A DNA stretch of 37,571 nt, from assembly GCF_027568515.1 (NCBI RefSeq), contig NZ_JANKZF010000037.1, forward strand, positions 1 through 37,571, written 5' to 3'. How positions within the stretch are numbered: position 1 is the stretch's first letter; the number at the start of each line of letters is the position of its first letter. Source of the stretch: Arthrobacter sp. HY1533. GTDB lineage: Bacteria; Actinomycetota; Actinomycetes; Actinomycetales; Micrococcaceae. Shown here piece by piece: positions 3,862 to 37,560 of the stretch. The notes below the pieces were generated by a model. It was not told the DNA's origin. It did no database searches and saw nothing but the letters and a program-made list of their open reading frames with translations. The position numbers and the translations under genes are program-made.

Positions 3862-3925
3862 AAAAAAGGACGGCGTTTGCGCTTAAGGCGGGTGGTGTAA
3901 CACCAGCCTTAAGCGCAAACGCCGT
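3862..3925 (-). terminator. Rho-independent terminator of fba-DUF3151, overlapping the DUF3151 3' end
   Basis: Two perfectly complementary 20-base arms, ACGGCGTTTGCGCTTAAGGC (3870-3889) and its complement (3906-3925), enclose a second small stem TGGTG/CACCA. On the minus strand the structure ends in CC and then TTTTTT (3862-3867), a textbook terminator. The DUF3151 stop codon (3883-3885) lies inside the 3' arm, so the terminator is also coding sequence. Confidence 0.88.
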
Positions 3926-22594: not shown

Positions 22595-22639
22595 AAAGGG
22601 CGCCTGCCTCCACGAATTCCGTGGAGACAGGCGCCCTTT
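22595..22639. terminator. Bidirectional terminator between NlpC/P60 and USP genes
   Basis: Arms of 20 bases (22595-22614 and 22620-22639) pair with one mismatch around the loop AATTC. It sits in the 81-base gap between two convergent genes. The stem ends in TTT on each strand, so it probably serves both. Confidence 0.75.
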
Positions 22640-29563: not shown

Positions 29564-29632
29564 TCTGTGGCGCAGTAGTTGCAAGAATTTCCCTTCTTTT
29601 TGGGGAATTTTCTGCAACTACTGCGCCACAGA
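29564..29632. repeat. 69-bp palindrome between the purine permease gene and hutG
   Basis: TCTGTGGCGCAGTAGTTGCA (29564-29583) is perfectly complementary to 29613-29632, and the inner bases continue the stem as AGAA/TTCT and TTCCC/GGGAA around TTCTTTTT. It would terminate transcription by stem strength, but no U-tract follows. The arm sequence is unlike the other palindromes in the window. Confidence 0.7.
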
Positions 29633-34592: not shown

Positions 34593-34653
34593 AAAAAGAC
34601 CGCGAACTCGCACTTTTCGCCCCCAGCCAGTGGGCGAAAACTGCGAGTCCGCG
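34593..34653 (-). terminator. Rho-independent terminator of hutH
   Basis: Arms of 22 bases (34601-34622 and 34632-34653) match at 20 positions around a nine-base loop. On the minus strand the stem is followed by GTC and then TTTTT (34597-34593). It begins nine bases beyond the hutH stop codon. Confidence 0.88.
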
Positions 34654-34662
34654 GCGGCGCTG

Positions 34663-36234: not shown

Positions 36235-36536
36235 GGCGTTCCTTGGGTAGCTGTTCAGGTTTCCTGTTCTCAACTATCCCGCTTAACCGCGCGGAAATCT
36301 GCCCCCTTGGGCACCCTGCATCCGGGATTCCAGACAGTGCGGAGTGGCCTGGTCAAGCGGCCCGGGGGTGGTTGTTGCCATTCGCGCCCGGTGCACCGGG
36401 GGCAAATGGCAAGCACCACCCCCGCAGCACGTCCGCCCGCCCCGTGGTTGCTCCACAGGCCCACCCAAGCGTGGAGTTGTGCACCTTCTGCCGCCTCCTC
36501 CTTTCGACCCAAAAGCTTCGGACTGAATCTTGACTC
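36235..36536. other. Gap between hutH and the AbiEi-DUF559 gene
   Basis: This 302-base gap holds the hutH promoter (not clearly visible), the palindrome at 36363-36424, and a possible promoter for the rightward gene: TTCGAC (36503-36508), 17 bases, AATCTT (36526-36531), five bases before the ATG. I see no credible gene. Confidence 0.5.
36363..36424. repeat. 62-bp palindrome, left copy of a repeat pair flanking the AbiEi-DUF559 gene
   Basis: The two 31-base arms (36363-36393 and 36394-36424) match at 27 positions and meet without a spacer at GGTGCACC. Each arm follows the pattern CGGGGGTDRTTGTTKCCATT and then a C-rich end. The same pattern makes up the palindrome at 37497-37560, so the two are members of one repeat family. 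It lies 112 bases before the gene start. Confidence 0.8.
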
Positions 36537-37505
36537 ATGACTACCTTCAAGGTGCCGCCGTTCATCACTCCGGAAAGCAAGTTCGCCGACGAATACTCAG
36601 CCCGGAGGCTGGCACGGGCGGCTTCGTCCGGGCAATTGGTTCGCGTTCGCCGCGGCTTGTACCTGCCCGCCGGGGACTGGAACTCGCTCAAACCATGGGA
36701 GAAGTACCGCGTGCGGATCCAAGCCGTCCAGGCAGCGTCCGTCCACCCGCCCGTTTTCGCGAGGGAATCCGCGGCCCAGATCATGGGCCTGCCGGTCATC
36801 GGCGTACCGCAGGATGTGCAAACCGTTGTCCCGCGTGGGGGCAGCGGGGGCCAAAGCAATCGAGGGGTGCGCCGCGTCAACGCCATCGACGGCGACCCCG
36901 CCCCTTGGGAAATGTTCGGCCTGCTCACAACTCCGCCACCGCAAACAGCTCGGGACTTGGCGGTCCGGCTCCCCCTGGCCATGTCCCTGCCTGCAATGGA
37001 CCGGGTCCTGCAACAGAAGCCGCTGGAGGGATCCCCGAGCTACGTCAAAACCATCTTCACCGAGAGCGACATACTGGCAGCAACCGAACTGCTGCCCAAC
37101 GAAACCCAGCGGCGTCGAGTCACGCGGGCGCTCAGCGTCGCCAACCCGCTGTCCGGGTCACCCGGCGAGTCGTTCAGCCGCGCCCTCATGATTGAGCAGG
37201 GCTTCCCGATGCCCACCCTGCAGGTGCGGTTCTCGGACAGCCGCGGCTTCATCGGCATGCCCGACTTTGACTGGGAAGAGTACAAAACGCTCGGTGAGTT
37301 CGACGGCTATGAAAAGTACTCCGCCCAGAGATTCCTGAAAGGCCGCGCCCCGTCCCAGGTGGTTGTGGACGAGAAGAACCGTGAAAATCGCCTGAGGGCC
37401 AAGGGCTACAACGTGGTTCGCTGGGTCTGGGACGATCTCCGCCAACCCGGCAGGCTGTTCCGGCTGCTCCGTGAAGCAGGGCTGCCACAAACTGTGCGGG
37501 GGTAG
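36537..37505 (+). CDS. AbiEi-like winged-helix protein fused to a DUF559 nuclease-like domain
   Basis: The 322-residue protein starts with an AbiEi-type winged-helix segment (about 20-50: SARRLARAASSGQLVRVRRGLYLPA), has a middle linker domain, and ends in a DUF559/Vsr-like domain (about 205-310). Glu211, Asp243 (in MPDFDW), Glu254, Asp256 and Lys260 (in GEFDGYEKY) fit a PD-(D/E)XK-type active site, and EKNRENRLRAKGYNVVRWVWDDL is the usual DUF559 close. Such genes are often annotated as AbiEi antitoxins, but no AbiEii-like toxin is beside it here. The right side is cut by the window at 37571. Palindromic repeats flank it on both sides and the right one overlaps its stop codon. Role unknown. 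Confidence 0.82.
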   Translation: MTTFKVPPFITPESKFADEYSARRLARAASSGQLVRVRRGLYLPAGDWNSLKPWEKYRVRIQAVQAASVHPPVFARESAAQIMGLPVIGVPQDVQTVVPRGGSGGQSNRGVRRVNAIDGDPAPWEMFGLLTTPPPQTARDLAVRLPLAMSLPAMDRVLQQKPLEGSPSYVKTIFTESDILAATELLPNETQRRRVTRALSVANPLSGSPGESFSRALMIEQGFPMPTLQVRFSDSRGFIGMPDFDWEEYKTLGEFDGYEKYSAQRFLKGRAPSQVVVDEKNRENRLRAKGYNVVRWVWDDLRQPGRLFRLLREAGLPQTVRG

Positions 37506-37560
37506 TTGTTGGCCATTTGGCCCCGGGGGGCGGGGGGCAATGGGAAACAATAACCCCCCG
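37497..37560. repeat. 64-bp palindrome, right copy of the repeat pair
   Basis: The left arm (from 37497, CGGGGGTAGTTGTTGGCCAT) and the right arm (ending 37560, complement CGGGGGGTTATTGTTTCCCA) are imperfect complements. The left arm matches the left arm of the 36363 copy at most positions with one inserted base. It covers the last two codons and the stop of the AbiEi-DUF559 gene. No U-tract follows. Confidence 0.75.

Follow-up and report, generated by a model that had tools for sequence, protein, structure and literature searches.

The best-studied example of a domesticated nuclease living alongside dispersed repeats of its own is the HUH enzyme, encoded in single copy, of the REP palindromes. 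According to two accounts of such REPtrons, or REPIN-RAYT systems, a single-copy gene is flanked by its own palindromes, several gene-repeat pairs occur per genome, solo copies of the repeat are intergenic, and the type of repeat is specific to the gene clade (PMC6006769, PMC8266576). Inverted repeats are also bound by AbiEi antitoxins, in their own promoters (PMC7319586). PMC3710099 treats the MTES_1575 nuclease, in a different context, as a domain of Vsr fold; the text examined contains none of the terms "palindrom", "inverted repeat" or "AbiEi". Among the papers listed from an open-access library (subscription papers and preprints being outside its scope), none was recognised as linking AbiEi-DUF559 genes to palindromes.

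The window, i.e., the whole stretch of DNA analysed here, is an entire contig of 37,571 bases (genome G000) and contains the following features:

36537-37505, + strand: solitary gene for a protein of 322 aa, an AbiEi_4 winged helix joined to a Vsr/DUF559-like PD-(D/E)XK nuclease
36363-36424: first palindromic repeat, upstream of the gene, 62 bp, with 87% complementarity between its arms
37497-37560: second palindromic repeat, downstream, 64 bp, a relative of the first and less perfect
3865-3925: solo palindrome from a different repeat family, a copy of which lies beside a homologous gene (L066) of the same genome

A preliminary description had placed the gene between two related palindromes, one 112 bases before the start codon and the other over the stop codon. 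The coordinates agree, with the TAG stop at 37503-37505 falling within the downstream palindrome, and the relationship was confirmed by alignment, the two aligning best in inverted orientation, with a score of 24 over 68 bp compared with 19.5 in direct orientation. An arm motif written from the window repeats, with up to three mismatches, matched each of the four arms and a single further place, 5129; shuffled sequences gave an expectation of 0.30. Several arms show spaced half-sites by eye. Folding of the DNA compared with shuffles gave z values of -5.6 for the upstream and -2.8 for the downstream palindrome, the latter being absent from inverted-repeat listings of the window. The window's own pair is among the weaker pairs found in this study. 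No intrinsic terminator (hairpin plus T-tract) was detected in the window between 36250 and 37571. Other long inverted repeats are present at 29564-29632, 22595-22639 and 34600-34654, the last directly past the hutH stop. The contig stops 11 bases past the downstream palindrome, and another contig of the genome, C66, stops 9 bases past a palindrome (G000:C66:82389-82431); the homologues L029 and L036 are likewise situated at contig edges. It looks as if hairpins break assemblies at such places.

The N-terminal part of the window protein matched the Pfam family AbiEi_4 with 24.3 bits, the curated cut-off being 25. Among 14 homologues, AbiEi_4 was matched by 11 (Pfam scan, E up to 0.1) and PADLOC AbiEi by 13, and weak profile matches were obtained to MTES_1575 and to DUF559 in four each; the Pfam scan of these proteins showed nothing else, i.e., no Y1 (HUH) and no known transposase domain. 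Invariant columns in the alignment of 14 divergent homologues included E211, R215, D243, E254, D256, K260, E279, R282 and E283. The residues which had been named from the window sequence as plausible for a nuclease, and which we take to be catalytic (E211, D243, E254, D256, K260), are thus all conserved in 14 of 14. A structure model built from two sequences only had a mean pLDDT of 55, with the first 132 residues poor; Foldseek ranked Vsr endonuclease (1cw0) first for this predicted model, as a weak match (E 0.026, probability 0.99), then 1vsr second and I-Bth0305I (3r3p) fifth. A search of the PDB by sequence gave no relative.

Homologues occur in all 23 genus genomes searched (E up to 0.001) and in 111 of 148 genomes, representing 68 of 82 genera, sampled from the class; the plasmids searched contained four distant records and the viral contigs searched no relative. 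Repeats were examined in 96 loci. For the pairing test, 450 bases on each side of the conserved domain were compared in loci oriented by the gene, a local score of at least 16 being required; displaced windows of the same geometry at the same loci served as controls. A matching repeat pair was present at 47 of 67 genus loci, taken from the matches listed with many weaker genus matches left out, and, beyond the genus, at 26 of 29, a non-random set of 28 of the 29 best class matches (the window's excluded, L191 dropped) plus Tomitella biformata (L051). The controls were positive in 2 of 117 cases, both from L088 and L090. Besides L191, short flanks led to the removal of L021, L029 and L036. A version of the test anchored on the stop codon, which did without L076, gave 48 of 68 loci, Tomitella included, versus 2 of 152 controls. 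The 26 outside positives comprise nine families (f1, the window's own, f4, f6, f11, f22, f23, f29, f30 and f31) and that of Tomitella, which may equal one of the nine. No pair was detected by the test at L198, L206 and L207 outside the genus, nor at 20 of the 67 genus loci. Bracketing by palindromes is usually the rule for AbiEi-nuclease homologues, and the copies do cluster beside such genes, as the preliminary description had asked to be checked. Its statement that a toxin partner is missing gains support from the homologues, since the closest downstream ORF was convergent in 81 of 93 loci, so that no operon partner is located there, and co-directional in 12; for the window itself, the contig ends 66 bases past the stop of the gene and the downstream neighbour lies beyond it.

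The repeats differ from gene to gene. None of 43 pairs of same-genome paralogues had a repeat sequence in common (score of at least 18; 48 genus loci with a pair). Between genomes, sharing rose with protein identity, from 0 of 842 comparisons below 55% to 3 of 191 at 55–65%, 12 of 43 at 65–80% and 8 of 9 above 80%. From these sequence comparisons, each gene clade appears to carry a private repeat. In 27 of 35 loci, but not in the other eight, the two copies resembled each other more closely than they resembled their counterparts at that site in other species; at the window locus the scores were 22 within the locus and 21 to the counterparts. This merely suggests that a locus tends to change in both copies at once as species diverge, because the way in which the repeats were excised favours the within-locus score.

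Copies away from the genes were traced in the 23 genus genomes with five repeat queries, and numbers of genomes with at least one solo were compared by one-sided Fisher tests, in which kinship was ignored and two of the five queries concern one broad family. Solos were counted, and gene clades assigned from a tree, by hand, with a G018 orthologue of L060 counted from a search match. The L022 repeat was found in exactly three genomes, the nearest clade of the window; solos were present in 3/3 genomes with the gene clade versus 0/20 without it (p 0.0006; with at least two solos, p 0.012). For the palindrome of 3865-3925, found in five genomes, the values were 5/8 versus 0/15 (p 0.002; 0.008), for L050, found in nine, 6/8 versus 2/15 (p 0.006; 0.032), and for L039, found in eight, with 11 places in G001 (two of them at the gene) and nine in G003, 4/5 versus 4/18 (p 0.033; 0.003). 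The L071 type was found in 12 genomes, with solos in 5/6 versus 6/17 (p 0.060; 0.081). An earlier version of the comparison, which included gene-flanking copies and had query-dependent thresholds, had given p values of 0.0006–0.018; counting solos only weakens the co-occurrence, and the L071 type is no longer below 0.05. Repeat and gene clade tend to co-occur for four of the five queries, the fifth being unclear; the check set in the preliminary description, whether genomes lacking the gene lack the repeat, came out favourably to that extent.

In the window's own genome the repertoire is small. BLAST with the upstream palindrome of the window found nothing significant except itself, and the arm pattern with up to two mismatches gave six matches, two of them lying in the downstream palindrome and four being loose ones without a palindrome there. 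With the repeat of a relative (L022) as the query, and only then, one diverged solo was detected, at G000:C62:61168-61229. An existence as just two copies, which had been named in advance as speaking against the idea, is therefore nearly true of the window species, but not of its relatives: G011 has four full L022-type solos, G003 has five, and G085 has at least 22 solos of the L201 repeat (below). The 3865-3925 family has four places in the window's genome, namely that solo, the copy beside L066 (gene at G000:C20:21057-22043, copy at C20:22173-22240), and solos at C43:39671-39738 and C11:19877-19938. Several arrangements were seen in passing. At L153 (G011:C1:4433600-4433809), a complete repeat precedes three half copies, arranged as a tandem of about 50 bp, which resembles BIME clusters. 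L096/L101 of G003 are two repeats about 580 bp apart, each just past a stop codon, which bracket an apparent MOSC-type gene (translation read by eye). Other recurrent palindromes were noted at L018 (G000:C16), L006, L074 and a G006 site among the five G022 sites treated below, one of them resembling the sequences which flank gene L086 of the window's genome, and another, of the type ACGACGGCGG, standing without an assigned gene.

The clearest case was that of G085, outside the genus, where the L201 repeat occupies at least 24 places, two at the gene and at least 22 solos (a count resting on 40 scored of 44 candidates). It was found neither in six congeners of G085 nor in two other genomes. In twelve aligned copies the unit measures about 91 bp, ends abruptly and has two hairpins. 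In these hairpins both sides of a pair had changed in nine cells, a number reached by 1 of 500 shuffles; counted by pairs, two had changed on both sides, a number which 465 of 500 shuffles also reached. Symmetry for a dimeric protein would give the same paired changes. Closely related species can differ in whether a given intergenic site holds the repeat: at five of seven repeat sites of G022, which were the five compared, G006 was empty at three and retained the repeat at two, and in G009, where three sites were decidable, two had retained it. At L141 of G006, compared with L068 of G022, the gene has decayed and the downstream repeat is gone, and solos of the family persist elsewhere in that genome; G006 has four L039-type solos alongside a decayed gene remnant only, and an L071-type gene with two flanking copies and zero solos.

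A REPtron-like system which is run by an unrelated nuclease appears to be the best reading, with a probability of about 0.58. The protein probably acts on the repeat; that it also drives the spread of the repeat is a possibility to which we would give slightly less than even odds. The nuclease would bind, and probably cut, at the palindrome which flanks its gene on either side, the winged helix reading it and the Vsr-like domain cutting there. Such recognition is plausible because AbiEi antitoxins bind inverted repeats of promoters. Gene and two repeats would form a fixed home locus inherited at one chromosomal site, from which single units would be copied in trans into the spaces between genes, chiefly at gene 3' ends, perhaps by a break and its repair from another copy of the repeat; small, lineage-specific repeat populations could result. 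The same repair may keep both home copies alike while the repeat and the specificity of the protein drift together. Gene-repeat pairing, private repeats, dispersal, presence or absence at sites, a tendency of the two copies to change in concert and conserved residues were read from the data, and binding, cutting and copying are what we infer. The REPIN/RAYT-like design tied to the gene, as proposed in the preliminary description, accordingly gained from the pairing and from the co-occurrence in four of five queries, and the protein may recognise or mobilise the repeats. Against the REPtron-like reading it may be said that some loci have no pair, that the L071-type query is unclear, that the window's own repeat has a single diverged solo, that the fold match is weak, that joint change of the copies could be ordinary recombination, and that shared descent alone would give related species the same gene and repeat.

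Autoregulation is the main rival, because AbiEi antitoxins bind inverted repeats in promoters: the palindromes would be operators of an AbiEi-like winged-helix repressor and the solos sites of its regulon. The AbiEi_4 matches in 11 of 14 members fit this, and so does the position of the upstream copy, 80–308 and mostly 95–215 bases 5' of the conserved domain. The second copy sits at the 3' end of the gene, however, and the invariant nuclease residues would be unneeded for repression. The surroundings of the solos were examined with a crude gene caller which overextends 5' ends. In the genus, a 5' end was found within 60 bases of 8 of 34 solos (random points 10%) and in G085 of 6 of 10 (random 5.5%), as for a regulon, but 3' ends were commoner, within 60 bases of 23 of the 34 (random 5%), some of which are the same site in sister species, and of 8 of the 10 (random 4%). 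No solo lay inside a called ORF in either set (random 61% and 79%, respectively). Autoregulation seems unlikely.

The gene with long terminal inverted repeats could also move as a unit, as a transposon of which the solos are leftovers. Pairs outside the genus would suit this idea, being mostly inverted (21 inverted, 4 direct and 1 tie among 26), whereas orientation in the genus is mixed (14 inverted, 31 direct and 2 ties among 47). The genes keep their site across species, in same-site groups reaching 15 loci; hutH adjoins the nuclease gene in the window and in G003, G011, G018 and G019. Among 48 repeat-bearing loci no two of the same genome exceeded 61% protein identity, and a near-identical second gene copy in G006 turned out to be a contig-end overlap and no duplication. 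The solos of G085 which were examined are single units, with two close pairs among the 24 copies. Movement of the whole element is, on these grounds, quite improbable.

A repeat spread by some other enzyme might simply have been kept near the gene, the protein being inert towards it. Cutting of the repeats by the nuclease is indeed inferred, and orphan solos of the L071 type exist in four genomes which do not have that gene clade (G011 five, G013 six, G015 four, G021 five), so that the adverse outcome named beforehand, with repeats next to unrelated genes and in genomes lacking the nuclease gene, is partly seen: solos do adjoin unrelated genes, and these four genomes hold four to six each. G011 carries a Y1_Tnp gene, too. 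But each of the paralogues is flanked on either side by a repeat of its own, and Y1_Tnp (PF01797), the enzyme which would usually be the alternative, is missing in 22 of 24 genomes, those of the window and of G085 included, with one gene each in G011 and G017; such a passive neighbourhood is very improbable. Least probable of all are ordinary terminators or gene-end hairpins, alike through chance or composition, since their strong folding and the location of solos and downstream copies at gene 3' ends are opposed by a sequence-specific pairing which exceeds the controls, by repeat families private to a gene clade, by the abrupt unit ends in G085 and by the absence of a T-tract terminator at both window sites.

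The AbiEi-DUF559 proteins of the class may have evolved independently as another kind of REPtron enzyme, with cutting of its own palindrome, copying by break repair, coevolution of specificity and repeat, and several private populations per genome; we put this forward tentatively and consider it, on balance, somewhat doubtful. If true, a way of life with dispersed repeats would have evolved twice, the second time with an unrelated enzyme. Proteins now labelled as solitary antitoxins would gain a function, and many naturally matched pairs of protein and site should become available for studying changes of nuclease specificity.

Compared with known systems, the N-terminal winged helix is of the family found in AbiE type IV toxin-antitoxin systems; unlike AbiE, the C-terminal half bears nuclease residues, a co-directional partner directly downstream is missing in 81 of 93 loci, and repeats flank the gene on either side and also occur dispersed. 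With Vsr, MTES_1575, DUF559 nucleases and I-Bth0305I the proteins share weak profile and Foldseek matches and the acidic residues conserved in 14 of 14; none of these is known to have scattered palindromes of its own. Insertion sequences with MITEs resemble the present loci in having a gene between often inverted repeats and short dispersed relatives of the ends, but here the gene is fixed at one site per clade, with no close copies in the same genome, the examined solos are single units, and the protein has no known transposase domain. REPtrons or REPIN-RAYT systems come closest: the AbiEi-nuclease gene is likewise single, nuclease-like and flanked by its own palindrome, which is also dispersed, with several gene-repeat pairs per genome, intergenic solos and a clade-specific repeat, although for the window's own repeat the dispersal amounts to one diverged solo only. 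The differences are the repeat units of about 60–100 bp and the enzyme, in which the Y1/HUH domain is replaced by a winged helix and a Vsr-like nuclease.
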